A DNA stretch of 64,000 nucleotides. It comes from Trichuris trichiura. Taxonomy: Eukaryota; Nematoda; Enoplea; Trichinellida; Trichuridae. The translations under genes were made by a program, and so were the position numbers. Positions 2,143 through 55,806 of the stretch are shown in pieces. The notes beneath the pieces are model-generated. The model did not search any database, was not told the origin of the DNA, and saw only the letters and a program-made list of their open reading frames with translations. The DNA lies in assembly GCA_037903355.1 (NCBI GenBank), contig JBAJFE010000004.1:6246001-6310000 (forward strand), given 5' to 3'. Within the stretch, counting starts at the first letter, position 1; each line of letters begins with the position of its first letter.

Positions 2143-2300
2143 ATACGTCAATTTAAGACCGCTGATGACGGGTCGCGTTTGGACCCGAAAGCTACGGAGA
2201 ATTTAGTAATAAAAGTTTTTCAACGGGACTCAAAATACGTATAAAAAAGAAGCAACCCAATGAAATTATACGGTCCCGTACGAAGAAACTATATGTTTAT
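2143..2300 (+). mobile_element. solo Penelope-like terminal repeat with hammerhead
   Basis: The segment carries the same string of landmarks as the ends of the Penelope-like elements downstream: a CTTAAGACC-like lead-in, a hammerhead core, an AATAAAAG run, ACGGGAC, a CCGTA-like step, then a GGTCCCGTACGAAG tail ending near 2300. It closely resembles the solo copy at 28517-28684. No ORF is attached and I found no target-site duplication, so the left boundary is approximate. Confidence 0.7.
2159..2197 (+). ncRNA. hammerhead ribozyme motif (PLE family 1)
   Basis: Order of elements: CCG (stem I), CTGATGA core, GGGTC pairing with GGACCC (stem II), GAAA, then AGCT, A at the cleavage position, and CGG closing stem I. 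Stem III is only the self-complementary AGCU, as in minimal hammerheads that act as dimers. One extra C precedes stem II relative to the textbook core. Activity is inferred, not shown. Confidence 0.7.
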
Positions 2301-2310
2301 TGGTTTTGTC

Positions 2311-4016
2311 ACATTTATTTGAAACCTTCCATTTACCTTGTTGATACGAAACGGTTAACAGGCAGTAATATGGGTTTTTTAGAGCTTTACTTTGTGACAA
2401 TATGGTCACGTTAATTCATCATGTCTTATAACGTCTGATAAGCACCGGTATATGCGTTCAATAGCCTCAGGTAATGACATGTCTACATAGATTTTTCGAG
2501 CCAATTTATTTATAGCTGCCGTGCTTGCTGGACGAACCGATGCCGCAGATTAGATTTACAAACTTGTACTGTCTGCAAAAATATAAGCCATTTTAAAGAA
2601 TATTCTTGAGATTTTAATTTTTGCTTTCTGAAACAAATTTGTTACAGTCATATGCTTTGCAAATAAACGTGCATTATTGCAAATCTTGCAGAATTAGCTA
2701 CTTCTATAAGCTTTGTGTGTCGTGGCAAATATAGTTGGCACTTTGCTTTCTGCATTTATTTTTCTCATAACAGCGAACAATATAAGAAGCTCTCAGAGCG
2801 TTCTAGTCCCGTTGCCAACGTGATGCACGATATGCTGACAATGAAACCGCACGAAAAACCCATCACTCCGTTGCAAAACTTGCAAAACATCCCATCTTTT
2901 ATCACACAGCGTGCCGTGCAAGAGTTGGCAGTTATCGGTCTTAAACTAGGTTAATTATCACAGCATTTAAAGAATTTACATTGCACATAAAGCGCTTATT
3001 TGCTAAGTACAGCTGGTGTTTAGTAAATGTGAGCACATGAAAGAATCGAGCTCAGCTCGTAAAAATCAACTCTGAACTGCTTTCACTGTAGCTTGAATTA
3101 GGTTTCAATTCTGTTAAAGTATTTCACAATCATCTGAAGCAGGATGTGCCATTTATACAGATCATGTAATGTCGGTAAACTGGATTTATTAGCATAAGTA
3201 ATATTTACGTAACACGTAGCTGTTCGTTTGTAAATGCAAAGGAAGTCTTGTAGCATGCTTTCCTGCTAAGTCATTATTCATGACCTTGAGCGGTTACTGT
3301 AAAGCTTAGCAACACGTCAGACTACCACTTGACTTGACTTAACGCTACTAGAGGTCATTAGCGGCTTCAGCCTTCCCGCTGATGGTCAAACTAATTAAAG
3401 AAGATTAAAGACAACAGCTGCTTCCGGATTAGGCCTAGCGTGATGCTTTCCATCTGATCAATTCGATATTCAGCTCTGATTGTTGACGTTCAGTTGTTTT
3501 CAAACAAGCACGCAATGAAAATGCAGTCATAAGGCTAAATGCCGACAACGAGAGGCTCCTGGGGCGGCAAATTAGCGCTTCTAGTTTCGCCAATCACACA
3601 GTTTAGCCGCTGTCTGCGGTACGGCTTCATATAATCCTCTTTCTTTTCTGTTTATCTGACTGCAGGAAACTGAGGCAAGCTGTGGTCAGGTGTTCTGCAT
3701 TCACATGGCAGGCCTCTGAGGTAGGACAAAGCATGAGGAGGCCAGGAATTTCCTGTTCCTATAGTTTAATATGGTGTGAACTTTCAGGACTATCTGTATT
3801 AGATCATTTCTGCTCCTGTTTCAGGTATCATTTTATGCATGAAGCTTCTACCGCAGGCTTGCTTTCACAGCCAACAGAGGAGCTTCGAAATGCTCAAGCT
3901 GCAATGCCCAATAAATGCTTGACGACAACAACTAAACTTTAAACAAAAGATATACAGTCCACTGTATTGGTACAAAAGCTTTGTAAACCAAAATTATAGA
4001 GCGGTAAAGAATTAGA
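2311..4016. other. gene-free stretch
   Basis: Open frames at 2715-2954 and 3682-3942 resemble no known family and look like chance. Around 2790-2815 the minus strand has a decayed relative of the foldback/hammerhead repeat seen at 4.0-5.0 kb (a GGGAC-TAGAAC-like hairpin). Nothing else is supported. Confidence 0.5.
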
Positions 4017-4119
4017 ATAGACGGATGAATACTTATCAGGTGCTGCCGTCTGCCGGCACAAATCTTTGTGCAGTAAATTTTTACTTTTTGTTTATATCTC
4101 AACATGGAAATTTAAAAAA

Positions 4120-4532
4120 CGTCGTTGATGGGAAAACATTAGATAATCTAAAAATCATTTAATTCGAAAAGGGAAAGCATTTTACATCTCATAATCTGAG
4201 ACTAAGTATGTCTTAAAGTGTTCTAAAGGCAATTTCTGCGTCTTTCACTTAATTATCACTTTATAACAGAACTTCTATTCCATTGTATAAATTGTGCGGA
4301 TTAACAGCCACCTTTCATAAAAATACAGGCCATTAATCCATAGCATTTATACAATAAAAAATAAATTAAAACCCCTGCTACGAAGTAACAATTAATTGAA
4401 AAAACACAGAAAGTACCTGTGGAGTACTTTGGGACGTACGTAGTCCAAGATAATGAGATCTAAAATCCCTTCTATTTTTGAATTAAATGATTTTAAAATG
4501 ATCTGTTTTCCCATTAATGACCTTCTTTAAAA
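4120..4532. repeat. inverted-repeat insertion nested in the foldback's left arm
   Basis: The ends are inverted: TTGATGGGAAAACA followed by AAATCATTTAATTC at about 4124-4173, mirrored as GAATTAAATGATTTTAAAATG...TGTTTTCCCATTAATG at about 4481-4519. The matching right arm of the host foldback lacks this block. That supports a later insertion of a MITE-like element; no transposase is present. Confidence 0.6.
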
Positions 4533-4670
4533 TTTCCATCTTGGTTTTGGTAGATCTTCTAAGGCTTTTCCCATTTTCTTGTATCTGCAATTAAAAGAAA
4601 CAGCTGCTCTACCGACGGATGGATGGCGATTATTAGGAAAATTGTACAGAACCAATGCACTCAACTTTGT

Positions 4671-4706
4671 TTCAGAGCTTTCGGAACGCTCTAGTTCCGC
4701 TGTCAG
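4671..4706 (-). ncRNA. decayed hammerhead-like hairpin
   Basis: On the minus strand the order is CTGACAG, CGGAAC, loop TAGAGC, GTTCCG, AAAGCTCTG. The hairpin pairs perfectly and the GAAAGCTC part is intact, but the catalytic CTGANGA strand is altered. It is probably a dead relative of the motif at 7226-7264, which has the same stem II. Confidence 0.4.
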
Positions 4707-5042
4707 TGAGATGGTTTTGTGCATTTTCTTAATAATCGCTCATCCATCCGTTGGTAGAGCAGTTGTTTCATTTAATTGCAGATACAAAAAAACAGAAAAA
4801 AGTCGTAGAAGATCTACCGAAACCATGAAACATTATCCCGTTTTGAAGCATCATGTGTTCAAAAAGAAATTTCATCTTGAGATATAAGTAAAAAGTAAAG
4901 ATTTAGTGCACAAAGGCTTGTACCGGCAGACGGCAACACCTGATAAGTGTTCACCCGACTATTCTAATCGAGCTTTTATCAACGATGACTGTTAGCCCGT
5001 CTGGTTTATAGAGTAAATAATAAACATACACTTCATTACGAA

Positions 5043-5390
5043 GTGATAGCTAATCGAAAAAATGAATGCACAGCTAACTCACGGCCGACAGATATCGGTA
5101 AGCGCAAGAACGAAATGGTTAGACTAACAATGGTGGTAGTGCCTACAGTAAACAAAGCCAAAGAAAAACGCCAAGGGTGGTTTGGACATGTACTGCAACG
5201 GAAAGACAGTCAGTCTCCGAAACAACTACTACTCCACACTCAAATAGAGGTCAGACGGCCGTGAGGAAGATCAAACTTAAAATGGATGGCCAAAGTGCAA
5301 GCAGATCTAAGAGAACTACCAATCACCCATGACCAGGCACAAGGCAGTAGTAAATGGACGAACATTACCAGAGCCGCATATTACACATAA
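5043..5390 (+). pseudogene. C-terminal fragment of a non-LTR retrotransposon reverse transcriptase
   Basis: The frame reads through to TAA at 5388 with one internal TGA at 5262, a likely CGA-to-TGA change. It encodes a tail typical of LINE pol proteins: KEKRQGWFGHVLQR, then RGRSNLKWMAKV (with the stop just before), then DLRELPITHDQA and SSKWTNITRAA. In autonomous elements this tail follows the reverse-transcriptase domain, and the (W/Y)xGHVxR and GRPxxxWxxxV blocks are hallmarks. No upstream catalytic motif is found, so this is a 5'-truncated dead copy. The clade cannot be told from this part. Confidence 0.8.
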
Positions 5391-7174: not shown

Positions 7175-7177
<3 letters not shown>

Positions 7178-7199
7178 GAAGAATTACTATATATATATA

Positions 7200-7345
7200 T
7201 AGAACGAATTACCTTTTCACTCACACTGCTGACGACGGAACAAGAGCAGTTCCGAAACGTACGGTATCCAAAGTGTTCTGCATTTTCTCTAACAATTTGC
7301 TCATCCATTCGTTGGTAGGGCGCATTGAAGTTTACTTACAGATAC
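7200..7345 (+). repeat. dispersed repeat copy with intact hammerhead
   Basis: The hammerhead motif at 7226-7264 is followed by CTGCATTTTCTCTAAC, GCTCATCCATTCGTTGGTAG and CAGATACA. These are the same blocks found in both arms of the 4.0-5.0 kb foldback and, single-copy, near 9.25 kb (minus) and 61.05 kb (plus). The family is therefore dispersed and hammerhead-linked. Boundaries are uncertain because of the flanking TA runs. Confidence 0.6.
7226..7264 (+). ncRNA. hammerhead ribozyme motif, variant family
   Basis: CTG (stem I), CTGACGA core, GGAAC pairing with GTTCC, GAAA, a palindromic ACGT where other families have AGCT, A at the cleavage position, then CGG. Stem I still pairs (C-G, a G-U wobble, G-C). 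Stem II and the stem III palindrome both differ from the PLE copies yet keep their complementarity. Confidence 0.7.
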
Positions 7346-7860: not shown

Positions 7861-7962
7861 GCCTCGACAGGTCAAGGTTCGACTAGACAGGCACGCACAC
7901 GACTCGGAAAGGTGGAGGAGCAACTCCTGAGGAAAAACTCGGTGGGAGGGCAACTCCTGCGT

Positions 7963-8000
7963 GCGCTGACGACGGCTCAAGATTGAGCCGAAAGCTTCGC
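7963..8000 (+). ncRNA. hammerhead ribozyme motif, second PLE family
   Basis: GCG (stem I), CTGACGA core, GGCTC pairing with GAGCC, GAAA, palindromic AGCT, T at the cleavage position, CGC. Compared with the main family, stem I changes from CCG/CGG to GCG/CGC and stem II from GGGTC/GACCC to GGCTC/GAGCC. Both are compensatory pairs, and the cleavage base is still not G. Confidence 0.75.
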
Positions 8001-8160
8001 CAGACTTGTTTGGTTTTATGCCCTTGAACGACATTAAAGCTTTTTCACTTTTTTGACTCGTTTTATGGGCAAATAGAAACGGGAAAAATCCATGTACATT
8101 TCTTGTTCAACCACCAAACCCGTTACGAACCTTACGCCTTCATATCCGTTTCGTATTTAT

Positions 8161-28516: not shown

Positions 28517-28684
28517 TACGTCAATCCTTAGACCGCTGATGACGGGTTAAGTTCGGACCCGAAAGCTACGGACATTTTATTAAGAAAAGTTTATTAATAA
28601 AAGTTTATTCAAGGGGACAGAAAATCCGTACAAAAGAAGCCAAAATGAAATTATTTGGTCCCGTACGAAGACATTATATCTTCA
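28517..28684 (+). mobile_element. solo PLE terminus nested in the older copy, 15-bp target duplication
   Basis: AAACACACAAAGAAA flanks it directly at 28502-28516 and 28685-28699. It starts TACGTCAATCCTTAGACC, holds a hammerhead, and ends with GGTCCCGTACGAAGAC. It is a near-twin of the solo copy at 2143-2300. Because its target lies inside the 28467-29024 element, it must be the younger insertion. Confidence 0.85.
28533..28571 (+). ncRNA. hammerhead ribozyme motif
   Basis: CCG, CTGATGA, GGGTT pairing with GGACCC (with a T-G wobble), GAAA, AGCT, A at the cleavage position, CGG. All core positions are intact apart from the family-wide extra C before stem II. Confidence 0.7.
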
Positions 28685-28933
28685 AAACACACAAAGAAAA
28701 CAAAGAATTACGGATCAAAACCAACCAAATGGAGAAGAACCTTAAAATGAAATTTCTGAAGAACAACATATATCCGCAACAAGAAAAATGGCTAGCTGAC
28801 AGACAGAAGATGAGGACACAAGGAAATCTACTTTAAAACATTCGACTTTAAACAGTTAAAACATCCCCGCGCAACACCCATTACATCATTTTAACACCGT
28901 GAATTTTTGTTACTTCATTGCTTTATATTAACA

Positions 28934-28971
28934 CCGCTGAAGACGGGTCTCGTTTGACCCGAAAGCTCCGG
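28934..28971 (+). ncRNA. hammerhead ribozyme motif, N7 = A
   Basis: CCG, CTGAAGA, GGGTC pairing with GACCC, GAAA, AGCT, C at the cleavage position, CGG. The fifth core base is A instead of T. That is the one core position known to vary in hammerheads. Confidence 0.7.
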
Positions 28972-29037
28972 AATAATAAAAATATTATCAACGGGACAAA
29001 CTTTCCGTAAAAGAAACTCGACACGTTCCCTTTTGTT

Positions 29038-32067: not shown

Positions 32068-32135
32068 ACATTGAATTTATTAATGAAGAAGTTTATTACG
32101 GATAATTCCCGTTTACTTATGTATACAGAAGAATT

Positions 32136-32173
32136 CCGGAGCTTTCGGGTCATTTGAGACCCGTCATCAGCGG
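32136..32173 (-). ncRNA. hammerhead ribozyme motif (left arm)
   Basis: On the minus strand: CCG, CTGATGA, GGGTC pairing with GACCC, GAAA, AGCT, C at the cleavage position, CGG. The core is intact. Confidence 0.7.
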
Positions 32174-32258
32174 TCTTAAGTTGTTGATATGATTCGTGGC
32201 AGCGAGTGCCTAAAACATTAGGGCACTCGCTGCCACGAATCATATCGACAACTTAAGA

Positions 32259-32296
32259 CCGCTGATGACGGGTCTCGAATGACCTGAAAGCTCCGG
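32259..32296 (+). ncRNA. hammerhead ribozyme motif (right arm)
   Basis: CCG, CTGATGA, GGGTC pairing with GACCT (one G-T wobble), GAAA, AGCT, C at the cleavage position, CGG. It is the head-to-head partner of the left-arm motif. Confidence 0.7.
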
Positions 32297-32407
32297 AATT
32301 CTTCTGTATACATAAATGAACGGGAATTAGCCGTAATAAACTTCTTCATTATGAAAACATTTGTTCCCGTACCAAGAAACCACGTTTTCAAAAACATTGA
32401 ATTTATT

Positions 32408-35119: not shown

Positions 35120-35518
35120 CTGATATTTGTAAAGTTCATTTGGGCATCAGGGAATTTTCGCCGTGTTCCAGGCAGGACTGCAAATGACATGTTTGCTCAG
35201 TTGTCAAGTATGACCACTGGGCACTGCTGGTCATAGCAACAGATCACAATTTACGCCTTCATCATATGTATATCAAAAACGCGTACCTGAATAGCCCACT
35301 CGACGAAGAAGTTTATATCGAACAGTCTCCCGATGTTGAAACGCAGGGACAAGAAGCTAAAGTTTTTTCATATCACAGAAGTCTCTGCTATCTAAAGCAA
35401 TCAGCAAGGGCCTGGAACAAGATACCCTTGCCGGTTTCCCGACTAAGCTGGACTTCAAACAAGGCAAAGCCGATTAGTACTTTATCTCTACAACGGAGAA
35501 ACATGAGAGCAAAGCATT
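35120..35518 (+). pseudogene. Copia-type polyprotein, reverse-transcriptase remnant (5' part)
   Basis: From 35191 an open frame reads VCSVVKYDHWALLVIATDHN, LRLHHMYIKNAYLNSPLDEE, VYIEQSP, then SLCYLKQSARAWNK. This is the Ty1/Copia RVT_2 signature (FAPVVKYxxLRxLL, LHHMDVKxAYLNGxLxEEIYMxQP, KSLYGLKQSxRxWN), with the catalytic Asp of motif A changed to Tyr (MYIK for MDVK). A decayed lead-in is visible from about 35120. The polyprotein is interrupted by the PLE at 35519 and resumes at 38103. Confidence 0.88.
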
Positions 35519-35522
35519 TGAT

Positions 35523-37655
35523 TTGACGAAATTTGATAGCATTCGAGACAATATTCCGACAACATCTTCAAACCCTTACAGAAATATTCCACAAAGAACT
35601 CCTAGGTCAGAGCTAGATTCAGCGATAATAAATCTCAGCTCATTCCCTTTAAGTGAAATTGAGAACCATATATTAAAAAAAGGACTTAACTTCGTCCCAA
35701 CACCAAAACAACCACCACTTCTCGACATGATTGCCTCCGTTGAAGACAGCCTATCTTCGACGGACACACAAAAAGCCACACAGATCAAGAGCAATCTATC
35801 TACATTGATCCTAGGCCACCACTTCACTGCCACATCGAACCTAAGCCGATATGAGATAAACAGCTTATATAAACTTAGAAACCAACCCAACAGAATTATA
35901 ACCAAAGCAGATGAAGGGAATAAAATCGTCTTACTTGACAGAAGCACCTACACCAAAAAGATGACAACTATCTTGAACACTAGCAATTATACGCTCCTAC
36001 CAACCAACCATACAGAGGTTTCCCGAAAAAATTTCCGATCTCTTCTCATTACATATGCCACAGAAACCAAAGAACCTGCTATCACCAAAATGACAACACA
36101 TCTTAAGTTTGCATCGAACTTCAGACCCCTCGAACTCTATGGTCTCCCAAAAGTACACAAACCAGATATCCCGCTAAGACCGATAGTCTCCACAATTAAC
36201 ACCATCACCACTGAACTCAGTAGATACTTAAGTAAGATCATCAAACCTCTAACAGGCAAGGAACCATCCTTTGTCAAAAACAGCAAAACGCTCGTCAACG
36301 AAATAAGAAACTATTGTTTGGAACCCGACGAGATTTTAGTCAGCTATGATGTAAAAGACTTATTTCCCAGCATCCCAATATCAGACACCCTAGAGACCTT
36401 ACACAATCTCCTCCACACGGACACAAATCTACCCAGCAGAACTAAATTAAATCCCTTTCACATTGTCAAGCTGGTCTCGTTTTGCATGCAAGAAGGCAAT
36501 TACTTCACTTTTGATAACAAGTTCTATAAACAATCTAACGGAGTACCTATGGGAAGCCCCCTATCCCCTGTATTAGCGGAAATCTTTATGGAAAACTTTG
36601 AAAGACAAATGTTCAGAACTATAGACAGACACATAGCTCCACGCCTTTTTAAAAGATACGTAGACGACATCTTTGTCATTATAAAAGCTGGAAAAGAAGA
36701 ACAATTTTTACAATTCCTCAACAACGTCCGTCCTAACCAAATAGTCTTCACAATGGAAAAAGAAGATAACAAAACCTTGCCCTTTCTAGACGCCTTAATT
36801 ATTCGCTCAAGCGAAGGCCTTAAAACCAGAGTGTATAGAAAACCCACGCACACAGATCAGTACCTCAATTTTTCATCACATCACCCACGATCAGTAATGC
36901 GTGGTATCCTCTCCGGAATGATAGACAGAGCATTCAATTTATGCAGTCCCGAATATCTCCAGCCAGAAATTAACTACATTAGAAAAATCTTCTACAAAAA
37001 CGGTTATCCTAAATCCTTTATCAACCAAGCGTTCAACCACAAGCTTCGCACACGCGAGTCTCCAAAGCAAAACACTCCGCACGACACTTGTCTGGTTATT
37101 CCTTATGTGCCAGGTTTAGGCGAAAAGATTGTCCAATTAGGAAAAAGATTAGGCTTCAGAGTCTTTTTCAAGAGTTCGCCCAACCTCAAGGCAATTCTCC
37201 GCACAGACAGAACTAAAACCCCCGCAAACAAAAAGACAGGATTAATATACGCGGTTGAATGTTCCTGCTCAGGGATTTATATTGGTGAAACGGGAAACAC
37301 TCTAGAGCATAGATTTAACGAACACTTAAAAAAGCTCACAAGTTACAATAACGCGAAAGCCATATTCAACAATGGTACCAATCTAACCACACAACGAGGC
37401 AGACCAATTGTGGACCCAAAAATTACAATGGAAAAAGCCAAACAAGCCTCTGCCGTAGTGGAACACGCGACGCAATGCACACAACCACTCCAAACAAAAG
37501 TTTTATGTTACGAAAATAATTTACGGTTAAGAAGAATTAAAGAAGCACTATATATTAGGCATAATACGACTTACAACCGCGATCAAGGAGTGGACATAAG
37601 TGGGATTTGGACAAATATTGTGACGCGGTATAATTGTTGCTCACTCAACAGATGA
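35523..37655 (+). CDS. Penelope-like reverse transcriptase with GIY-YIG endonuclease
   Basis: Copies element RNA and nicks target DNA. Residues about 60-80 hold the PLE lead block (LSSFPLSEIENHILKKGLNF). Reverse-transcriptase motifs follow: LYGLPKVHKPDIPLRPIVS, DVKDLFPSIPI (first catalytic Asp), QSNGVPMGSPLSPVLAEIFM, RYVDDIFVI (catalytic YVDD) and LPFLDALI. C-terminal: GLIYAVECSCSGIYIGETGN, then LEHRFNEHLKK, a GIY-YIG nuclease with nearby cysteines as usual in Penelope proteins. The frame is open throughout. It has no ATG start: translation is drawn from a TTG near the truncated 5' end, so the true N-terminus is missing. RT and nuclease could be intact, but the copy lacks its own start. Confidence 0.93.
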   Translation: MTKFDSIRDNIPTTSSNPYRNIPQRTPRSELDSAIINLSSFPLSEIENHILKKGLNFVPTPKQPPLLDMIASVEDSLSSTDTQKATQIKSNLSTLILGHHFTATSNLSRYEINSLYKLRNQPNRIITKADEGNKIVLLDRSTYTKKMTTILNTSNYTLLPTNHTEVSRKNFRSLLITYATETKEPAITKMTTHLKFASNFRPLELYGLPKVHKPDIPLRPIVSTINTITTELSRYLSKIIKPLTGKEPSFVKNSKTLVNEIRNYCLEPDEILVSYDVKDLFPSIPISDTLETLHNLLHTDTNLPSRTKLNPFHIVKLVSFCMQEGNYFTFDNKFYKQSNGVPMGSPLSPVLAEIFMENFERQMFRTIDRHIAPRLFKRYVDDIFVIIKAGKEEQFLQFLNNVRPNQIVFTMEKEDNKTLPFLDALIIRSSEGLKTRVYRKPTHTDQYLNFSSHHPRSVMRGILSGMIDRAFNLCSPEYLQPEINYIRKIFYKNGYPKSFINQAFNHKLRTRESPKQNTPHDTCLVIPYVPGLGEKIVQLGKRLGFRVFFKSSPNLKAILRTDRTKTPANKKTGLIYAVECSCSGIYIGETGNTLEHRFNEHLKKLTSYNNAKAIFNNGTNLTTQRGRPIVDPKITMEKAKQASAVVEHATQCTQPLQTKVLCYENNLRLRRIKEALYIRHNTTYNRDQGVDISGIWTNIVTRYNCCSLNR

Positions 37656-37972
37656 AAATACAAAAACCGGGAAAGAAGAAAAAACAAATAATTAGAACTA
37701 ATAAAAATGGATCAAATTGAAATATATATGAAACAAAGAAAGAAAAAGAAAAATGAATGCAATATGAAAAAACAGCGATTCAACAACAAAGAAGAATGTT
37801 CGAAACAACCAACGAAGACAATCTAGAAGCCATACGGAACAAGAAAAAGAATTGCGCTGACAGACTCAAATGCGAAAACCTAGCAACGGAAAACTTTAAA
37901 AAATGCCCGCTTTAAAATCCTCGGAAACGATAGATGGCATTCGCTGCCAAAAATCATATTTACAACTTTAGA

Positions 37973-38010
37973 CCGCTGATGACGGGTCTCGAATGACCCG
38001 AAAGCTCCGG
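37973..38010 (+). ncRNA. hammerhead ribozyme motif of the main PLE
   Basis: CCG, CTGATGA, GGGTC pairing with GACCC, GAAA, AGCT, C at the cleavage position, CGG. It lies about 320 bp after the ORF stop and before the 3' tail. It is the only ribozyme in this 5'-truncated copy. Confidence 0.75.
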
Positions 38011-38102
38011 AGTCTCTTTTCATATACATCAACGGGAACCGTTCCGTAGTAAAGTTTTTTCATTATGAAAATATATGGTCCCGTACCAAGACACCACGTT
38101 TT

Positions 38103-41591: not shown

Positions 41592-41634
41592 AAGTTATAC
41601 GCACCCGTCAGTCAACATTCAACGAATTTATTGT

Positions 41635-41672
41635 CCTAGCTTTCAGGTCCCAGCCGGAGTAGTCATCAGCGG
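41635..41672 (-). ncRNA. degenerate hammerhead motif (left arm)
   Basis: CCG, CTGATGA and GAAAGCTA are intact on the minus strand, but stem II no longer pairs and stem I is partly lost. It is probably inactive. Confidence 0.5.
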
Positions 41673-41700
41673 TAAACAGTAATGTATTTAAATGACCCTA

Positions 41701-41739
41701 CCGCTGATGATGGGTAAAGCGTGGACCCGAGAGCTACGG
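41701..41739 (+). ncRNA. hammerhead-like motif with GAGA (right arm)
   Basis: CCG, CTGATGA, GGGT pairing with ACCC, then GAGA in place of GAAA, AGCT, A at the cleavage position, CGG. The A-to-G change hits an invariant core base, so activity is unlikely. Confidence 0.55.
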
Positions 41740-42777
41740 CAATAAATAAATTTATTGAATCTCGACTGACGGTACGTCATCTATGACAATACTACGTACT
41801 CAACATGCACTGTCCCGTACCGAGGTGTTATCTTTTCCAAGTTATACACACCCATACAGAAAAGCTCTATTTTCAATGTTATCAAATATGCTAGCATTGG
41901 AAATAAAAAGCATTGAACCACGCTTTGCAAATGAGTCCGAAATATGTACAGGCTATGAATTCAGTACTCGTCTCTCTGATTTGAAAACTACTGAACAATG
42001 ATAACGTCAATTTTCTCTTAATTGCAACGCCTCAAAATTCAATCAAATAACATAGCTGACAGTATGAAAAAACGGCACTTGACAAGGCTATGTTAGGAAA
42101 ATATTAGGAAAGACTTTCAGCAAATGCGTACTCCCAACTGCTGTTAAAAACATAGCTTCTCGTAACGGCTACGTACGTGTGCCTTGATATATGGCTCATT
42201 CATGGAATTGAATCGTTTGTTAAAAAGCTGATTTAGCTCACAGCTTTCGGTCTGTTCTTGCCACGTAGTCAACGAATTAAAACACTGGGACCGATGAAAA
42301 CCGTTTAGATAAATACAATTGCAGTGTGCATTTTGTCAACTTAATGAAGACTTGTGAAGGACATTGTGCAACGTATGCAAGAAAATATGCTTCCAGCACC
42401 TTTAGGTTCACTGCATGTCCCTATAGTAGCGCGAGTGCATGTTTGAGAGTGCTTACATGTCAATACAGGCCGACCGACCCCATTTAAAATTGCGCGCACA
42501 ACATCTTAGTGAACCACTGCATGGATTTCACTTACAGGTCATCTCGACCAGTACATCCTGCATCTTGCAGTAGCCGTGTTTCCCAGTGCAACATGGTTAA
42601 TTGCGAAGCAAAACGTGAAGGCAATGCATCTGCAAATTCTAAGCCACGTAAGCGCAAGATGATTGCCGAAACAAAAGATATCGTCTTGAAAATGTGGTTT
42701 CTTCGTACGGGACCGTATGTTTTCATAATGCAAAAGCTTTATTACGGAATAATTCCCGTTTAGTGTGTTAAATAACT

Positions 42778-42815
42778 CCGGAGCTTTCGGGTCGACCGAG
42801 ACCCGTCTTCAGCGG
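42778..42815 (-). ncRNA. hammerhead ribozyme motif (left arm), N7 = A
   Basis: On the minus strand: CCG, CTGAAGA, GGGTC pairing with GACCC, GAAA, AGCT, C at the cleavage position, CGG. The core is intact and faces the right-arm copy. Confidence 0.7.
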
Positions 42816-43149
42816 TTGTGAGTTATGGATATAACTTGTGCGCGTGACTTGAGTCTTCTGTCGTTTCCATGGTTTAAAGCGGGTGTTTTAAAGTTTTCTG
42901 TTGGTGGTTTTCTGTTTGTGTGGTATGTGATTTGTCCGTTTTTCGCATTTCTTTCATGTGCGGTGATTATTTCTTCTTTCACTTGCTCCATGTGTTCTTG
43001 TATCACGTCCAATTATTGAGCAGCAGACGTAACGCGTCACTATATTTGTCCAAATTTCACTTACGTCTGCTCCTTGGTCGCGGTTGTATGTGTGGTTGTG
43101 TCTTATGTAAAGGGCTTCTTTGATTCTTCTTAATCGTAGGTTCTTTTAC

Positions 43150-44732
43150 TAACTCCCTAGCTCTACGGTCTCCCAAAAGTACACAAACCAGGGATTCCAA
43201 TGAGACCAATAGTTTCCACCATTAATAGTATCACAAGTGAACTCAGTAGATACTTAGGAACGATCATCAAACCACTTACTGGCAAAGAGCCGTCTTTTAT
43301 CAAAAATAGCAAAACTTTTGTCAACGAAATCCGGAGTCACTACCTAAAACCAGATGAGATTCTGGTTAGTTATGATGTAAAAGAACTATTCCCGAGCATC
43401 CCCATATCAGATACACTTGAGATCCTATACAATCTCTTCAATGGAGACACAAGTCTACCCACCAGAACTAAACTAAATCCCTTCCACATTGTCAAATTGG
43501 TTTCCTTTTGCATGGAAGACGGCAATCATTTCACTTTTGATAACAAGTACTACAAACAATCTAACGGAGTACCTATGGGCAGCCCCTTATCTCCAGTATT
43601 AGCAGAAGAAATATTTATGGAAAGCTTTGAAAGACAGATGCTCGCAACGGTTGACAGACACATAGCTCCACGCCTTTTCAAAAGGTACGTAGACGACATA
43701 TTCGTAATTATTAAAGCTGGAAAGGAAGAACAATTTTTACAATTCCTCAACAACATCCGCCCGAACTAAATCGTTTTCACAATGGAAAAAGAAGACAACA
43801 ACACCCTACCCTTTCCAGACGCTTTAATTATTCGCACAAACGATGGGCTAAAAACCAGAGTATATAGAAAACCCACGCACACGGATCAGTACCTCAACTT
43901 TTCATCACATCACCCCAGATCAGTAATGCGTGGTATCCTCTCCGGAATGATAGACTGAGCAACCAAATTGTGCAGTCCTGAATATCTTTAACCAGAGTTC
44001 AACCACATTCGAAAAATTTTCTACAAGAAAGGGTAGCCAATGTCTTTTATTAGCCAAGTATTCAACTACAAGCTTCGCAAACGTGAATCTAGTGCAGAAA
44101 ACGCTTCGCACCAGCCTTGCTTAGTTATTCCCTATGTGGCAAGCTTAGGAGAAAAAATTACCCGGTTAGGAAGAACATTAGGTTTCAGAGTCTTCTTCAA
44201 AAGCTCCCCTAACCTCAGATCAATTCTTCGTTCAGACAAAGCAAAAATCCCAACAAATAAGGAGACAGGATTAGTATACGCAGTCGAATGCTCTTGCTCA
44301 GGAATCTATATTGGCGAAAAGGGGAATACTTTGGAACATAGATTTAATGAACATTTTAAAAAGCTTGCAAGTTACAACAATGCGAAGGCCATGCTTAATA
44401 GCAGTGGCTATGGAACTACACAAAGAGGAAGACCAATTTTAAACCCGTTAGTCACCATGGAAAAAGCCAAACAGGCCTCTGCTGTGGCAGAACATGCCAC
44501 ACAATGTAACCAAACGCTCAACCCAGTCTTATGTTATGAAAAGAAGCTACGATTAAGAAGAATCAAAGAAGCCCTTTACATAAGGCACAACCACACATAC
44601 AACCGCGACCAAGGAGCAGACGTAAGTGAAATTTGGACAAATATAGTGACGCGTTACGACTGCTGCTCAATAATTGGACGTGATACAAGAACACATGGAG
44701 CAAGTGAAAGAAGAAATAATCATCGCACATGA
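43150..44732 (+). pseudogene. Penelope-like RT/GIY-YIG pseudogene
   Basis: Starts at LYGLPKVHKPGIPMRPIVS, so everything before that RT motif is absent. It keeps DVKELFPSIPI, QSNGVPMGSPLSPVLAEE, RYVDDIFVI and C-terminal CSCSGIYIGEKGN with LEHRFNEHFKK. Lesions relative to the main copy: an extra codon (AEEIF), a CAA-to-TAA stop at 43768, CTA-to-CCA in the LPFLD block, a stop near 43957, a stop near 43989 and one at 44035. The open tail 44040-44732 runs past the normal stop. It encodes a non-functional protein; divergence from the 35.5-kb ORF is moderate, so it is a separate lineage rather than a recent duplicate. Confidence 0.9.
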
Positions 44733-44870
44733 AAGAAATGCGAAAAACGGACAAATCACGTACCATACAAACAGAAAACCACCAACAGAGAACTTTAAAA
44801 CACCCGCTTTAAACCATGGAAACGATAGAAGACTCAAGTCACGCGCACAAGTTATATCCATAACTCACAA

Positions 44871-44908
44871 CCGCTGAAGACGGGTCTCGGTCGACCCGAA
44901 AGCTCCGG
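44871..44908 (+). ncRNA. hammerhead ribozyme motif (right arm), N7 = A
   Basis: CCG, CTGAAGA, GGGTC pairing with GACCC, GAAA, AGCT, C at the cleavage position, CGG. It is the inverted partner of 42778-42815. Confidence 0.7.
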
Positions 44909-44979
44909 AGTTATTTAACACATTAAACGGGAATTATTCCGTAATAAAGCTTTTGCATTATGAAAACAAAAGATATCGT

Positions 44980-46699: not shown

Positions 46700-49600
46700 A
46701 CGTAATTCCAAAATAAACTTGCAAGCCGTGACAGAACTTACAATTCAAATCAAACTCTGGGTTCTCCACGTGAGGTCGTGTGTCAGATAATCTTAGGTTC
46801 GGTAAAAGCTGCTTTGTTATGCTGCGTTGGCACTCATCTCGTAGTCGAAAGGAAATGGCAAGGGGATTTAGAAAACAGGCAACTGCACTTATCCTGATTT
46901 TCAACTTTATTGACAGTACCTCTTCACTTGTCAACTGTTGTAATTCTGGTGTACGCTTAGCACAAAAAACATCAGTAACAAAAGAAGCTAAGTACTGCAT
47001 TCGTAGAAATAGCAGTAACTACGGCTAAACTTTTCATCTCATTCATTTATTTTAGCTGTCTTATTCAAGCAACAGACTTTGGAAACTGTGCTTTAGGCTT
47101 ATGGAAATCGTAAATTAAGATCACCTGCAGATTGAATAACGATGCAACAAGTTCAAAAGATGAAAGGTCAAATTGGCGAAAAGTCAGCAGAAGGAATGCA
47201 AGTTTGTCACGTTGCATCGTGCTCCCCTAACCGGTACTGACTGGCCGTCGAATGAATGACGAATGACAGCGGGAATTATAGCCCGTTGGTGAGCATTAAA
47301 GCGACACGGCACATCAGATAGGTCATTTGGTGGAAACGAGACCTCTTTTCTCAGTTGTATTCGTTCTGAACTTTTGCTCAAAGGAAAGTGACAAACACCT
47401 CATGTCTAACACATGACGCTGAATGAAAATTCTTACATCCGGGCATGCTAGGTCACTCAGGCATCTTCCCCAGGTCTTGCTAGCGCATTCCAAAGTGCAT
47501 AACGAAACTGCTAGAGATGCAATCAACGTGATCTACACCGGCGTCTTTCTGTTCGCAAGCAGTCCGCTAGTTGTGTGAGTACGAAGCGCGTTCAAGCAAA
47601 GAAAACCAACCAGTAGTGCTCTTCATGCTTAAAAATTTTTCTCATTGCCTCCACAGACGCTTCAGATGCATCGGCAAACTGACTGTTCGAACTGCGGAAA
47701 CTGCACTCAACATACCTTTTCTGTTGGCATAACAGACAACATTGCTACTCGTTTGACCGACTACGTGAAGCTGCCACAGATCGCTCTTTCTTGCAATGGT
47801 TCGACAGCTCGTTGATGCCATCATGTTTACACTGCTTAGTCAGCCAAAATGTTTTGCATACGCATTCTATCGCTCCTTAAGAAACACCTTATCAGCGACG
47901 ACAAGCGAACCATCTCTTCGACTTGTGCCAGTAAAAACCCGGTAGAATTGATTGGCCATTCTTGAAATGACTTACCACTGTTTCGAGAAATTTGCCTGTG
48001 CACTGTTTTACGATGATCCTAACACAAATTTCAAGTCTGCCTGCGCTCTTCGAATTAAAAGTTAAAATTGCTTATAAACACATTACTCTTACTGTTTCGA
48101 TAAGTGATAAAAAAAAGGCATGCGTTTGGGGAAGCCAGCAGCAGCGCTGGTCACTCTACTGTCTCCAAGCGGCCTGCCTGCCGCTGTAAGACAATGGAAC
48201 GCATAGCAGTAACGTCTCAACTATCACTGCGCTGCCTTTGGCAAACAGAAGTGATTCTGTTGACTAGAGGAAGAAACGCATCATCTTCACATCACCAATA
48301 ATAACGAACAGGTTTTCCCTTTCTGATAGGCTGATGGTGAGCTGCTGCTCAGGGAACAGAAAGGCCAGTCTAGCTGGCCAAACCACTTTTGCATCTGAGT
48401 ATTTTAACTTTTTAATGTGGCGGTTATGGAAGCATCGATGAGAGAAAAGGATCGACAGAAACAAATGACGCAACTGATCGATCTTAGTAGGACTCAGCAA
48501 TTGCTTCTGTAATCCTCCGCTTTCGTTGTGTGGTAGACTTGTTTCTGGCACGTTGAGTCTTGGCGCTGTTCTTAGCTTTGGTAACCTAGCTTTATGATGC
48601 ACTTTACACACTCATACGGCTAGATAACCAAAGAAAAAGACAGCGCCTTTACGAGGGCAGAACCATGCAACAGGATTTGTTAAGTCCGATATTTGATCCA
48701 ACAAAGCGACGTTGACAAATTTACAGCACAAAACGACCGTCCACAATGTACCAGCGAACCGGTGCACAACCAACTCCACACAACCCCGAACAGAGAATAA
48801 CCAGCAACCGCCCAACAACCAAGCACTTCAACTGGCAATTCTGACTGTCCAATCAGCAATGAATCAGCGTACAGCTGCTCACAGAAGCGCCACCATCATT
48901 CAGACCGGTTCTTTCCGGTGAATGGGCAAAGCAAACGTTTGCTTGCCAATGAAAGTTTTCGCTGTTCTTTGTGAGCTGCTCGTCCGCCGATGTGTACGCG
49001 AGCAAGCAAAGGCGCCGATCAGCCTCGGGGCACAAGTTACCGCCTACGCCTTAAGGATGCAACGTTGCTGTTTGCCGATGGCTGTCACAGCGCCGCTCCT
49101 ATGTGAATATTTTGCAAATTACCAAGATAGATTGACGTTGTCAAACGAAACAAGGCACGCCAATCGCACAACATGCATTAATGGGAAGGATTTCAGCTGG
49201 TCTACAGAAGCTGTGAAGAATGCGATGGACGTTCGCTGAGCTGTTCAAAAGACGTTGTTGTCCCATGGGCACAAAAATTCGCATGTGTGATTCTACATCC
49301 AGCGTGTTCAGTTACATTCTGATGAATCATTACTCTGGGCAGGCAAGGCGAGAAGACGAAAACGATGATGAGGGTAATGAGCAACGAACTGGTTTAGAGA
49401 GAAGCGCACAACTGCTACAAGTCGGCGTTTCGAAACTGGTTGGTACGCTGAGTGCCTTCGTTACTGAAACAACATTATCCATTGGAATTATTTCCTTGCG
49501 AGCACTTCGCTTGCTAAAATGCCACCGTCTTAGTCCCCCAAGAATTTGTGCAATGTTAACGACAAATGGACAGTGATGATGGGACCTAGGGCATAGCCAG

Positions 49601-52600
49601 GCATGTCATAGGCGACTGCTGACCAGTGTCACATTTATCTGTTTATTCAGTTTCATCTGACTGCTTGCTTTGCGTTCGTATTGAATTTGCTTGGCTGGAA
49701 CGGGAATGGCAATGCAAAACTATCATCTGACTGTCCCTTTGTATTACTTGCATGTCCCATTAGAACTTGCGAATCCTAGCACGGAGAGAAAGAGAGAGAG
49801 AGAGCTTACCTGCTGCAGTTCACGAAGAAATCTCTGTTTCAGAGAAAGCAGCAATGAAGAGGGCCGGCGCAAAGCACACTAATTCATTAGCTGCTTTCCT
49901 TTCGTTCCTGATTGACTTAAGTATGACGAGAAGGCGATTATGACATCCTGACATTGCAGTCTGAATCTAAATCAGCGCTCGCTTCTCTTCTGCGGCTGTT
50001 GGCTGTTGCGTGTTCTGCGATTTGGACGGCAAGTGCTTGCGTTTGAAGTTGTTTCAGCACCAAAACAAGCAGCGGCGTCTCCTGTGTTAACGGTGTCAGA
50101 GAAACTGATGAAGTGCCGGCCAGATGGTTTAAATAAGCTAGGACTTGAAATATTTTGTCTCTGGTACTTGACGTACGTTCTTACAACTATTATCTCCCGT
50201 GGGTTGCATACACTCAGCTGTTAGCACATTAATAGATTTATGGAATCTGTCAACTTTCGCCGTGACAACGTTGGTGAGCAAGCTTTTTGGAGAGCATTTT
50301 ATCCGAGAATAAGTGCTCTTTGAAAAAATTAAAATGTCGTTTGAATCAAGGCTGGGCGCAGGCTTCTAGCCACAAAGCATCGAGTCCATATAAACAAAGT
50401 GAAAGTATTCTAAAACTTTAATATCGGTTCTGGTTAATTCTTATGTCGTGTGCTGTGTTCTTACTGGAAGCTCAGTTCATCAGATGAAACACAGGGCCTT
50501 TAGTATACAAGGTGTATTGGAAGGATTACAATTCGTTGTCCTAGGAGTGATTGTAACTGTATGTACGGGGTTTTCAATACTCCGAAAAAAGGTTTTGAAA
50601 GTTGTTACTTCAGTCAGGCTACTTCAACACGTTTATGGAGTGGCAAGACCAGCAATTGTGATTGTGCGGTCCGTGAAGCCGCTTCAGTTGACGCAGGAGA
50701 CAGACCGTAAGCTCCCTGATCCTCTGAATGCTTTGTAAATCAAAAATTTACACATATTGCTCAGCAGAAGGGATTTCAGGACGTGCCATTGACAGCACTG
50801 CTATTCATAAGGCAAGCATAGCTTTGCTGGACTAAAATAAGATGTGCATCTTCGTCATATGGCGTGGACTTTTTGTCTGGTTCAGTGTTTCTAAGTTCAG
50901 AGGTGCTATTGCTCCCTGATCGTAATAGTATCTTCGACACCTGAAGTCGTTGTTCAGAAGTGTCAGTCTTTTCCTACTATGCGGGCAGACAGAAATTCGG
51001 CAGGACAGTAGAAGTCTAGTAGAAGTCTTTGGACGAGTAGCAACCTTTCCAGTAGCTCTCAGTTCGATGGTCAGGGGCGACATCGCTGTCCTGCCGCCGC
51101 TAGCAATCCCTCTCCTTTATCGCCGCTTAAGAATCACTTTTGTATCGCCTCTTGCAAATTCCGTTGCGCTCTCTTCATGAACACTCCATGGCTCTACGAA
51201 AATCTGAAATCTTTCTCTGGTTAACGCTGATGCACTTGAACTAACTTTTGCAGCATCTTTGAATGATTTTGGGAAAGCATTTTTTTAAACGCAGTATGAC
51301 GACTTTCTGAGGAAGTAATCCGTTCTTGTATTCAATGGCTCCAAAGAAATGGCTTTATACGGACTGACTGAGGTGCCATCTGTTGTTTGAAAATCGTTCA
51401 ATCTCAACGAAAATAGAACAAAGGATTGCTACCTTTCAAGCATTTTCGTTTTGGTGACTTTAGTAGCAGTTCAGTTGCACAGCTACGCTACAGCATTATT
51501 CTTGTGCTTATTTAACAAGTTCAACCTTTCGAAAAGATGGCTTTTGTTTGTGAGGAGTATGGACTGTCCGCTCAAAACGACTTGGTAAATCTCAAATGCC
51601 ATGGACCAGACGCTGGATCTAGGGGTGGTCAATGAGAAAAAGATGGGCGATGAAAGTGGTTCGTGAAAAGTCACATCTTCCTGGTTTTCATGGCTATTGC
51701 TCAAATACTGTTTCTGCCCTTACATATAGTGCGAAAACTTCCTTACGCCTATGAGATTTTTCTGGTCAATCCCCGCTACAAGCAATGTTGGGGATATCAA
51801 ATTCCGTATGCTAGTTTGTAAACCATGCGTCAGCTTAGAGAGAACTTAAATGCGTTTGTAGGACCAACTGTCTCATGAGATAGTGATGGAAAGTTTGACT
51901 TCGTTCCGATCATGCATACTACAAGGAATCATAAACCTGAGGTACTGACAGTTTGTGCAAGTATGTTTCTGTTCAATGCTTAAATTTTTTATATAGCCAT
52001 TTTTTCACTTAACTTTCAAGCAAATCTTAGAAGCGTGAGAACAGCGCCAAAATGTTCTCAGCTGAGTATCAGTATTTCTGTTGGGCAAACTTTTCAAGAT
52101 CTGACTTGTGCTCAGAAGGGAGGACGAAGTAACGTAATGTTGTAGGCTAGAGGTCTTTCAGAAAAGATAAAATATGAAAAATGATTTAATCAGCTATTTC
52201 CAAGGGTCTCAATTCGACCTGTGAAACCGAAAATGGACGTGTGGTGACGAGTATGTAACTGTTCATACTTGAAGTGGTAGTGAGTCATTCAGCATGCTAA
52301 AATAAGCATTATGGAATTTTCGAACCAGTCGCAATTCACTGACTACAGGTCATGACGTATACGAAAGCTCCGTAATACGTTACTACGCTAAACGAGTTTC
52401 GTGATATTATGTCTTACGGCGTTGTTCTGTTAAGTGAATGGGGCCGATGTTGCGAAGGCTTTTTATCGCATAGAAATCACGTCGCTTTCAGAGCTGACCT
52501 TATTCCATGTCAGCAAGCTCGTGCTGACAGCAGAACAAAGTCGATTTGGAAAGCTACGTGACTTCGCGATAAAAAGTCTTCGCCGCATTGACTCCACTCC

Positions 52601-55137
52601 TCTAACAGTACAACACTGTAAAATATAACACCATGAAATTCAGCTTCTGGCTCCCGAAAAACTACATCCTCAGACGCGCTAAACGAGTTTACAGTAACTT
52701 TTAGTACATGAAACCGAAAGGTACAGTCAAACTGTTCAGTCAGAAAACTATAGAAGTGCTTGTAAATGCAAGCGCTATAAGGGTTAAGATCAGTTCATTC
52801 TACCGTCAGAAAATTTATTCTATCTCGTCATGCAAGCATTTTTGCAAAACTTTCGCAATGTGCAACAGCAAGAATTGAACCAAACTATGAGACCGTCGTT
52901 TCTATGACACGGGATTGAGTAAGTGGATTTTTCGGGTTTCCTGCTGAGTGCTGAACTGTCTTACTTTGTGTTAAAGCCCACGTCTTTTTTAAAGTTCAGC
53001 GACTGCCGTAAGATTTCGCCCTGCTTAAAGCTTAGTTTTTTAATAGTGAGTGTCTTTTCAAACCCTTTAAGCCACTTTACATGCAGTTAGTAGCATGTAA
53101 TGTCTATAACAAAGGCGAGAACAATTCCAGCTAATGGGTAGGCTTGCGACTAAATTTAATGCGGTAAATACAACTTGTGCGCTGTTATCGTTGTCAAATC
53201 ATAGGATTGAGTTGCTCCGCCATCGGCATCAAAATTTATCTGGCATTGATTCACAGTTTGTAGACATTGTACTACCAATTTGACTTAACCATTTCAGAAT
53301 AAACGTTTGGCTTGCTTTCAAGAAGCCCGGTACAATAAATACCAAGGTACTTTTCATTCATAATGTAGCCTTGAGCAGTACTATTATCATTTGTACAAAA
53401 AACCATGTGTCCAAAGTCATATATGCATGTCCTTAAAATTTACTGAAAAAGTTCAGAAAATAATAGTCCTTGTCGTCAGCTTGGCTGCTCTGACGGTTGT
53501 TTTGTGAAACAGGATTTTTTGCGGGCGCTAAAGCGTTAACGACTTTTCCTCCAAGTTATATTCTGTCGCAGGCAGCATAGTTCATGGACTTATGAGCTAT
53601 ACGGTTCGTGGAGGTGAAGGTGGTTCTTCCCGTTGCCAGAAAACAAACACTGACGAATAGTTATTGCCTGACTCAGGATTTAATCAGAATTAGGTGCTGC
53701 GAAAGTTTGAAAAGTGAGTAAATCCTTCTTTGCGGAAGAATCACATGCAATTGCTACTGGCGAAGCATTGGATCCCGTTTTCTAGCCACCAGTCTCTTGA
53801 TCAAGACCATCCCATGTTTTCAAATTGCGTAAAACTGTCAATTGCAAAAGCAGCGGCAAACATAGCTACTTAGATAAACTGACAAGCTTCGTATCACGCA
53901 GGAATGTTCACCTCAAAGCAGTCATCTTGCCATCTGCAGTTTGTTTTATCAAACCCGTTGAACGTACCTGTGAGTGATCTAATCTACACAATGTTGACAG
54001 TACTGCTGTTGGAATTGATGTGAGTGTGGTTAGTGCTGAATAAAGGTTGCACTAGTGTTTTTAAGCTTGCTGATTCAGATAGAACTACTCATAATTTCTG
54101 CTACTCAAAAAAAATTTATTCACTTTTGTGTTTATATAAACGAAAGTAAACCGGTAGACATTCTGGTGTTCTATCATGGAACAAAGACTAATAAAATGAT
54201 ATAGACTAATCGCTTTTTAAGAACACAATGAGGAATAATGGTATGCCGAGAATGTTAGATAGGATCTCAATCGTCAAAGGTTAAAGGGTAACAGAGTTAA
54301 CGGAACGGCAAGCATTTGGTTACAAATTCTTGTCCTCTGCTGTCAGACGGTTAGGACGATAAAGACCCAATTGGGACCGGTTTGAAGGCTAAGGATCTAC
54401 AACTGTGCGACAGATATGCCAACTGGACTCACTGTCCCGTTTATGCCACTCACCGCTTCGAAAGATGACACTTCTGATAAGCAGTCAGGATGACTATTCA
54501 CATAAGGTTAGGTGACTTAATCGGTTAAATCGAGCAGTCTGTGCCGTGGTGTTGACTTGATAAGAGTCTTGATTTATTATACAAGCAAAAGCAGCATTCT
54601 TTGCCTCTTCAGTCGCCACTGCTGGAAAAATGATCCGATGTCGCCTCGTCACGGCGGCGGGAAACTGGAGAAACCAGTTCAAATCACAGTGGTCGCACAG
54701 TGGCTTAGAAGGAACTTAACGAAAATGCATGCAGTACGCGCTTGTTTAAAAACTTTTCCGGCATACATGCTTTTTAAGAACGTTCTCTGATCTCTTATGC
54801 TAAAAAGTTACCATTTATTCTGCTAACGTAAGATTTAGTGGGCAGGAAAAACTATAATCCCAATGAACTATGGTTTTAACTAAATTTTCACCTTCACCTA
54901 AAAATGCACTTAGAAAAGAGCTGCTTCTATCTGGTTCACTTGTAAACTCAACGAAAAGCAGCCTTCAGTTTGCCTTTACTGTCTCCAAGGATTTCTTGTT
55001 AGTCTTACTAATAATGGTTTAATATTAATAAAATTTTCTCGCTATAATGAATTTTATTATTAATGCGGCATGCAGAAAACTGGACTCCTTGAAAAGATCA
55101 ACAGTGGAAACTTGTCCGCTGAAATAAGTAATTATAT
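46700..55137. other. long stretch without a recognised gene
   Basis: No family is recognised in 8.4 kb. The part 48600-49600 is less AT-rich and has longer plus-strand frames: 48712-49239 is open except for one in-frame TGA at 48919, and 49220-49576 overlaps its end in another frame. They could be parts of an unknown gene or chance. A short AG-rich patch lies at 49784-49804. Near 52355 the string CGAAAGCTCCGTAA recalls the hammerhead 3' part but the rest is absent. Confidence 0.4.
48712..49239 (+). other. unrecognised open frame with one internal stop
   Basis: In one frame 48712-49239 is open for 176 codons apart from a TGA at 48919-48921, immediately followed by ATG. The first part is rich in Asn, Gln and Thr; the second has two stretches with several Cys residues. 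I recognise no domain, splice pattern or homologous family. It may be a decayed gene, a mis-sequenced exon or chance in a locally GC-richer block. Confidence 0.2.
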
Positions 55138-55205
55138 AGAATTTTTTTCATAATGAAGAAATTTATTACGGGTTATGTCCCGTTTGTTTCGTATATAAAA
55201 AGACT

Positions 55206-55243
55206 CTGGAGCTTTCGGGTCATTCGAGATCCGTCATCAGCGG
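55206..55243 (-). ncRNA. hammerhead-like motif (left arm)
   Basis: On the minus strand CTGATGA, GAAAGCTC and the hairpin frame are intact, but stem II has one A-C mismatch and stem I reads CCG against CAG. Activity is doubtful. Confidence 0.55.
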
Positions 55244-55247
55244 TCTT

Positions 55248-55766
55248 AAGTTGTCTATGGTCTATAGTCTCCCAAAAGTACACAAACCAGATATCCCGCT
55301 GAGACCGATAGTCTCCACAATTAACAGCATCACCACTGAACTCAGTAGATACTTAAGTAAGATCATCAAACCTCTAACAGGCAAGGAACCATCCTTTGTC
55401 AAAAACAGCAAAGCGCTCGTCAACGAAATAAGAAACTATTGTTTGGAACTCAATGAGATTTTAGTCAGCTATGATGTAAAAGACTTATTTCCCAGCATCC
55501 CAATATCAGACACCCTAGAGACCTTATACAATTTCCTCCACACGGACACAAATCTACCCAGCAGAACTAAACCGAATCCCTTTCACATTGTCAAGCTGGT
55601 CTCGTTTTGCATGCAAGACGGCAATTACTTCACTTTTGATAACAAGTTCTATAAACAATCTAACGGTGTACCTATGGGAAGCCCCCTATCCCCTGTATTA
55701 GCGGAAATCTTTATGGAAAACGTTGAAAGCCAGATGTTCAGAACTATAGATAGACAGACATTTTAA
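55248..55766 (+). pseudogene. Penelope-like RT fragment
   Basis: Encodes the middle of the reverse transcriptase: SLPKVHKPDIPLRPIVS, DVKDLFPSIPI, QSNGVPMGSPLSPVLAEIFM, then IDRQTF and a stop where it runs straight into the hammerhead terminus. The catalytic YVDD motif, the thumb and the whole GIY-YIG domain are missing. Very close in sequence to the 35.5-kb ORF, so both come from the same subfamily. Its 5' junction falls at the same RT motif as in the 42.7-kb copy. Confidence 0.9.
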
Positions 55767-55768
55767 GA

Positions 55769-55806
55769 CCGCTGATGACAGGTCTCGAATGACCCGAAAG
55801 CTCCGG
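55769..55806 (+). ncRNA. hammerhead ribozyme motif (right arm)
   Basis: CCG, CTGATGA, AGGTC against GACCC (one A-C mismatch at the base of stem II), GAAA, AGCT, C at the cleavage position, CGG. The core is intact. Confidence 0.65.

Follow-up and report, generated by a model that had tools for sequence, protein, structure and literature searches.

A 64-kb window of the genome of the whipworm Trichuris trichiura (G000:C9:6246001-6310000, the whole stretch analysed here, from a genome of 72.7 Mb in 62 contigs) contains repeated copies of a small hammerhead-like RNA motif that belongs to Penelope-like elements (PLEs). Computational analysis establishes the core letters of this motif, an extra base within the core, the avoidance of G at the putative cut site, the covariation of two stems and the link to PLEs. 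The near-fixed extra base is the distinctive trait of the motif; the kind of hammerhead to which it belongs is itself known. The motif is probably a minimal type I PLE hammerhead that is mostly inactive when alone and is opened by a partner RNA, by the protein of the element, or by both.

Core, stems and extra base of the motif

A sequence-only reading of the window had listed 14 copies of the motif, and all of them are present. Ten are well formed (they pass the alignment filter given below), two carry mismatched stem pairs (55206(-) and 55769(+)) and two are decayed (41635(-) and 41701(+)). Genome-wide, the core pattern CTGANGAC-N10..24-CGAAAGCTH has 3390 matches, compared with two for the reversed pattern that serves as a control. 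The strict pattern of the main family, which includes the extra C, matches 1023 times and the ACGT version 353 times, with no match for either reversed control. These search patterns fix the core letters, so that pattern counts alone cannot prove letter conservation, but comparisons between patterns can. Within the window CTGANGA occurs 60 times where 29.8 occurrences are expected, a number reached in none of 100 shuffles.

Covariation was assessed in an alignment of window copies and copies from 60 of the 100 core-pattern places listed, which are mostly distinct in sequence and lie in the first 3 Mb of one contig. A copy was admitted if it contained GAAA and if stem II had three or more pairs at its base; stem I played no part in selection. 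This filter excluded nine of the 60 chosen loci and four of the 14 window copies, leaving 65 rows, 60 of them distinct. In these 60 copies (alignment A2), 47 cells are altered on both sides, compared with 12.9 after shuffling. The covariation score is 0.308 against 0.107 for shuffled rows (none of 500 shuffles reached it) and at most 0.076 for slid controls, in a test that uses no tree and whose scores are inflated by kinship among the copies.

In stem I, 59 of the 60 rows form the third pair, with six pair types, where shuffling gives 34.5. In stem II, 59 rows form the fourth pair, which is changed on both sides 14 times, and 53 rows form the fifth (47.3 shuffled); the first three pairs of this stem are conditioned by the row filter. 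The compensatory changes that the sequence-only reading had proposed are thus borne out for stems I and II, and a lack of covariance support, which it had named as one part of a refutation, is not what the 60-copy alignment gives. Its remark that three stem families are unusual does not survive: the genome carries many families, far beyond three.

A covariance model was trained on the 60 copies, eight of which come from the window and therefore match by construction. It finds all 14 listed copies (41635(-) at E 0.036) and adds a decayed fifteenth on the minus strand at 4668-4713, with core CTGACAGC, stem II GGAAC/GTTCC and AGCT. Eight weaker window matches (E 0.044-1.4) are left uncounted.

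The CUGANGA and GAAA core letters of the motif are those of a hammerhead, and the stems that flank this core, I and II, are kept as pairs, stem I having just three. Position 17, which precedes the putative cut, is A, C or T in 3390 genome matches and G in 39 (three in the G control), as the NUH rule of hammerhead cleavage requires. The claim that this base is never G holds as near-absence, and many of the 39 copies with G17 look decayed. Since base 17 is unpaired, the avoidance of G fits the cleavage rule and is hardly explained by pairing. Base 7 had been read as T, A or C, but G is also found at this position in copies outside the window. The two proposed forms of stem III are both found, with AGCT in 13 of the listed window copies and ACGT in one (7226). 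Within one molecule stem III could form only A15.1-U16.1 and the inner G-C, and the palindromic AGCT or ACGT could instead pair between two molecules.

Stem II of a hammerhead usually, if not as a strictly defining trait, follows directly after A9. In the whipworm motif a base intervenes at position 10. This base is C in 3390 genome matches and another letter in 362 (12 in the control), 281 of which have T (5 in the control); at least one of the 100 non-C matches listed lacks the extra base altogether. When the main-family pattern is written without the extra base, it has no match in the genome, compared with 1023 with C. The extra C had been attributed to every copy in the window; it is present in 13 of the 14, and the copy at 41701 has T. 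Around 20 long open PLE frames (described below), 29 copies pass the stem II filter, 27 with C and two with T, and the base-less form, which was also looked for there, accounts for none of the 29.

Folding of six window copies predicts a C10-G12 pair that adds 2.5 kcal/mol in each and has a probability of 0.98-1.0. G12 acts as the catalytic (general) base of the hammerhead. If it is paired with C10 as the folding model predicts, an RNA on its own would be expected to remain mostly shut. A second contact, between the AGC of GAAAGC and the GCU with which the core begins, is part of the lowest-energy structure in three of the six copies.

Related hammerheads provide some points of comparison. Those of newt satellites and animal retrozymes have a canonical core that is not known to contain an extra base. 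They are sited in satellites or retrozymes and not beside a PLE frame. These type I hammerheads nevertheless share with the whipworm motif a very weak palindromic stem III and a requirement for dimers, as described in the available text of PMC7229834 and PMC6155905. For hammerheads in PLEs, the available text of PMC6155905 and PMC7761336 describes minimal forms that lack helix III and are possibly dimeric. Such minimal type I PLE hammerheads resemble the whipworm motif further in their pseudo-long terminal repeat (pseudo-LTR) location, their thousands of copies per genome and their presumed dimers (same sources, in part). Compared with those defined by Cervera and de la Pena (2014) and Lunse, Weinberg and Breaker (2017), the motif here has a base, mostly C, between A9 and stem II, although those papers may show it. 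A literature search for core strings with the extra C gave no match, and the defining PLE-hammerhead papers may already report the base.

An extra nucleotide has been encountered in viroids. De la Pena and Flores reportedly described in 2001 that the (+) hammerhead of chrysanthemum chlorotic mottle viroid has an extra A10, with C being detrimental at this position and U beneficial. The position is reportedly the same as that of the extra base in whipworm, but the RNA is a viroid and the base is A rather than C. One natural viroid hammerhead is accepted as such despite an additional nucleotide in its core; the available part of PMC11014351 describes it as weak and as gaining activity when this nucleotide is deleted.

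Position in Penelope-like elements

The window contains a PLE open frame with RVT_1 and GIY-YIG endonuclease domains (35478-37655, plus strand) and a hammerhead copy behind it (37969-38014, plus strand). The closest full-length relatives of its reverse transcriptase are found in Trichuris muris (49% identity over 95%) and T. suis (47% over 88-93%), which by themselves would point to a trichurid nematode as host. A genome search with this frame gives 65 matching places, the best non-self match having 98% identity. Twenty of these places, free of inner stops and with a long open frame, were examined. In 18 of the 20, a hammerhead on the same strand lies 134-356 nt behind the frame, and under the criteria used none was found at the other two (L151 and L159). 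At three loci (L147, L156 and L160) a second hammerhead precedes the frame in the same orientation, 2.78-2.91 kb away.

The motif therefore stands at the ends of elements that encode a reverse transcriptase and a GIY-YIG domain, as is expected of a minimal PLE hammerhead. The elements also have the canonical traits of PLEs as defined in PMC11167929 and in the available text of PMC3846280: a frame with RVT_1 and GIY-YIG, inverted or tandem pseudo-LTRs, an optional tail of about 30-40 nt and a short target duplication. Location behind such frames, together with covarying stems and a base 17 that avoids G, upholds the earlier suggestion of a hammerhead-like RNA of PLEs.

Insertions frequently leave copies in inverted arrangements. 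Among the 100 strict-pattern places listed, 23 of the 29 neighbouring pairs at most 5 kb apart are inverted with their tails outward. The hammerheads in 14 of these 23 (contig C1, among the matches listed) are at most 167 nt apart, so that the copied DNA often ends a short distance upstream of the ribozyme, as though copying came to a halt there. A sample of 41 inverted pairs was assembled from loci chosen by hand from the listings (L103-L121, L124-L143) and from the window. Target duplications of 7-16 bp flank 35 of the 41, although three are just 7-8 bp and possibly due to chance and the placement at L132 is doubtful (its arms align over 18 nt); the remaining six, in which no duplication reached 7 bp, are left out of the count. 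In all 35 duplication-bearing pairs, the tail of one arm is 32-50 nt longer than the other, the long arm being the right one in 19 pairs and the left one in 16. Duplications and unequal tails fit a two-strand, target-primed insertion and suggest that reverse transcription begins at two sites per insertion, one on each target strand. For rotifer Penelope, the available text of PMC3846280 already reports an optional tail at one of the inverted ends. The Anolis element likewise has two start sites, and its strands did not differ in vitro (PMC11167929).

Two window pairs show both tail asymmetry and a target duplication. The pair 32170-/32262+ consists of a left arm with a short tail (32132-32177, minus strand) and a right arm with a long tail (32255-32300, plus strand), and has the 14-bp duplication ACATTGAATTTATT. 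In the pair 42812-/44874+, which has the duplication AAACAAAAGATATCGT, the long tail is on the left arm (42774-42819, minus strand) and the short one on the right arm (44867-44912, plus strand). These arms surround an interrupted PLE frame (43200-44732, plus strand) with an RVT_1 piece at 43200-43769 and a GIY-YIG piece at 44040-44732 that falls slightly under the Pfam cut-off. A third pair, 55240-/55772+, shows tail asymmetry by eye and no clear duplication. Its left arm (55202-55247, minus strand), with a tail that looks short, has mismatched stem pairs (GGATC; CCG/CAG), and its right arm (55765-55810, plus strand), with a tail that looks long, has one mismatch at the base of stem II (AGGTC). 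Between them lies a PLE reverse transcriptase fragment (55251-55766, plus strand), of which 55261-55756 is 96% identical to 36136-36631.

Further structure is found in the optional tail. In 67 of 146 arms, the tail 3' of the hammerhead is spanned by a helix of 6 bp or more, compared with 8-26 arms in 20 shuffled controls; some loci overlap, so that not all arms are independent. One type accounts for 56 of the 67 and shows the compensatory changes ACGGGAC/GTCCCGT, ACGGGAG/CTCCCGT, ACGGGAA/TTCCCGT, AACAGGC/GCCTGTT and AACGGGT/ACCCGTT. Examples are the window arm 32262+ and arms at L104, L105, L120 and L141. Together with TGAAAAC/GTTTTCA, noticed by eye, this helix could give rise to a pseudoknot where reverse transcription starts.

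Two other arrangements are of separate interest. At L069 (1011-2073), three direct hammerhead units of 475 bp are in tandem beside one inverted unit, an array that could yield circular or unit-length small RNAs in the manner of retrozymes. In the window, the frame at 35188-35460 lies directly upstream of the PLE frame and is a possible joint or insertion site. It contains a reverse transcriptase string that we take to be Ty1/copia-like.

Searches of other sequence collections gave little, and those aimed at the extra base in PLEs of other animals, among viral and genome contigs, were unsuccessful. A search with a PLE fragment among phages produced no match. Viral contigs contained no PLE, and none of their seven pattern matches was confirmed; the pattern with C had no match there, and the lone match without C (L123) was dismissed by eye for its poor stem I. 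Among genome contigs there was one PLE-like contig (L091), binned with a bacterial metagenome-assembled genome, on which no hammerhead was found. The other 11 genome-contig matches are weak, come from bacterial records and are presumed to be bacterial reverse transcriptases.

Putative activity of the motif and alternative explanations

The motif occurs at the 3' end of the element, and in some tandem copies a further one precedes the frame. In the mechanism favored here, the RNA would cleave after H17, and a tandem transcript cut from hammerhead to hammerhead would yield a unit-length RNA of about 2.8-2.9 kb. Alone, the RNA would be mostly inactive on two grounds. Stem III, consisting only of palindromic AGCT, would have to pair with a second copy, and C10 would pair with G12 and close the core until a partner RNA, the protein of the element, or both open it.

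A close experimental parallel is the hammerhead of the Anolis Poseidon element (PAc), which shows no cleavage without the protein of the element (PMC11167929). As in whipworm, it is a PLE hammerhead located upstream of reverse-transcription start sites (PMC11167929). The two differ in that the PAc frame starts at stem II, whereas at L147 the first methionine of the frame is 292 nt behind the 5' hammerhead, and in that cleavage has been measured for PAc. PAc is cut 26 nt downstream of its start codon (PMC11167929). If that codon begins at A9, this would equal the distance from A9 to the cut in a whipworm copy with a 16-nt hairpin, extra base counted, and the Anolis spacing would then fit an extra base there too.

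It is possible, but tentative, that the extra C serves as a built-in latch, with its pairing to G12 lengthening stem II and keeping the ribozyme shut. The template RNA would then stay joined to the reverse-transcription start region until a protein or second RNA opens the core. A latch of this kind, if real, would explain why cleavage by the Anolis PLE hammerhead depends on protein.

Several results weigh against the favored mechanism. The Rfam search that the sequence-only reading had proposed came back empty: models of all hammerhead families give zero matches in the window at the gathering cut-off or at E<=10. RF00163 also gives zero matches in the whole genome, in a search that was equally silent in its 14 control genomes. 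The motif thus falls below the gathering cut-off of the Rfam Hammerhead families and is not filed there, perhaps because it lacks stem III and has an additional base. Stem I is short, with first and second pairs that are nearly constant (52 against 50.8 and 54 against 53.4 shuffled, of 60 rows) and a fourth pair that lacks support (10 of 60 rows against 13.4 shuffled).

The folding results bear most directly on C10. When the six copies are folded without C10, three of them retain the competing GCU/AGC pairing, and omission of this base alone does not make the hammerhead core the lowest-energy structure. Since the inactive fold outlasts removal of C10, this base is not the sole obstacle to activity. 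C10 and G12 are both near-invariant, so that covariation cannot show their pairing. Position 12 is not G in 248 genome matches (control 4), and T10/A12 doubles number 38, where about 21 are expected if the two changes are independent (281 x 248 / 3390, with 248 covering all non-G letters). These doubles were rejected as proof of the C10-G12 pair, as the matches listed mostly have decayed stems. In Anolis, hammerhead mutants leave insertion unaffected (PMC11167929). According to the available text of PMC11167929, its authors had previously observed a PLE hammerhead cleaving itself with Mg2+, so that a protein is not always needed.

The motif might instead be an active hammerhead of the ordinary type, its extra C forming a bulge of little consequence. 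This alternative is rather doubtful, given the high predicted probability of the C10-G12 pair. A neutral bulge also would not require the base to be kept, as it is in 29 of 29 copies around long open frames.

Another explanation, which appears quite unlikely, is that the motif is a relic whose fold is kept as a protein-binding site or as a structure that arrests reverse transcription, its cleavage having been lost to the extra base. The predicted closure of the core by C10-G12 would suit a relic, as would the strongly harmful effect that C is said to have at this position in a viroid hammerhead and the closeness of copy ends to the upstream side of the motif in 14 of 23 inverted pairs (among the matches listed). 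The Anolis relative speaks both ways, inserting independently of cleavage yet cleaving when its protein is supplied (PMC11167929). A relic would hardly account for base 17, which is unpaired in the fold, yet is seldom G (39 of 3429), with A, C and T each frequent, the pattern that cleavage would demand. The GAAA and CTGANGA letters are fixed while both stems vary, which also argues against lost function, even if the search pattern selected those letters. Chance sequence or a DNA-level repeat without RNA structure is extremely improbable, since both stems covary across families above shuffled and slid controls and reversed-pattern controls are near zero, although the copies do sit in dispersed repeats, where common letters alone prove nothing.

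The role of minimal PLE hammerheads is described as unknown in the available text of PMC7761336. With a base retained in thousands of copies and predicted to help switch the core off, this role becomes a one-base question. The copies also constitute a rich natural alignment for a motif that the Rfam models failed to detect in the window.

Further copies and features of the window

The remaining window copies illustrate the range of stems. On the plus strand, the copy at 2155-2201 has stem I CCG/CGG, stem II GGGTC/GACCC, AGCT and A at position 17. Its counterpart at 7222-7268 has CTG/CGG, GGAAC/GTTCC, ACGT and A, and the one at 7959-8004 has GCG/CGC, GGCTC/GAGCC, AGCT and T. Two more plus-strand copies carry GGGTT/GACCC in stem II with A at position 17 (28529-28575) and GGGTC/GACCC with C (28930-28975). 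The decayed copy on the minus strand at 41631-41676 has broken stems I and II, and in the decayed plus-strand copy at 41697-41743 T replaces the extra C and GAGA stands for GAAA.

Two other features were encountered in the window. A mir-9/mir-79 microRNA precursor is located on the minus strand at 48566-48643 (66.7 bits). A near-palindrome of 2.35 kb at 58604-60957 is about 85% identical to its own reverse complement and is unrelated to the hammerhead motif.

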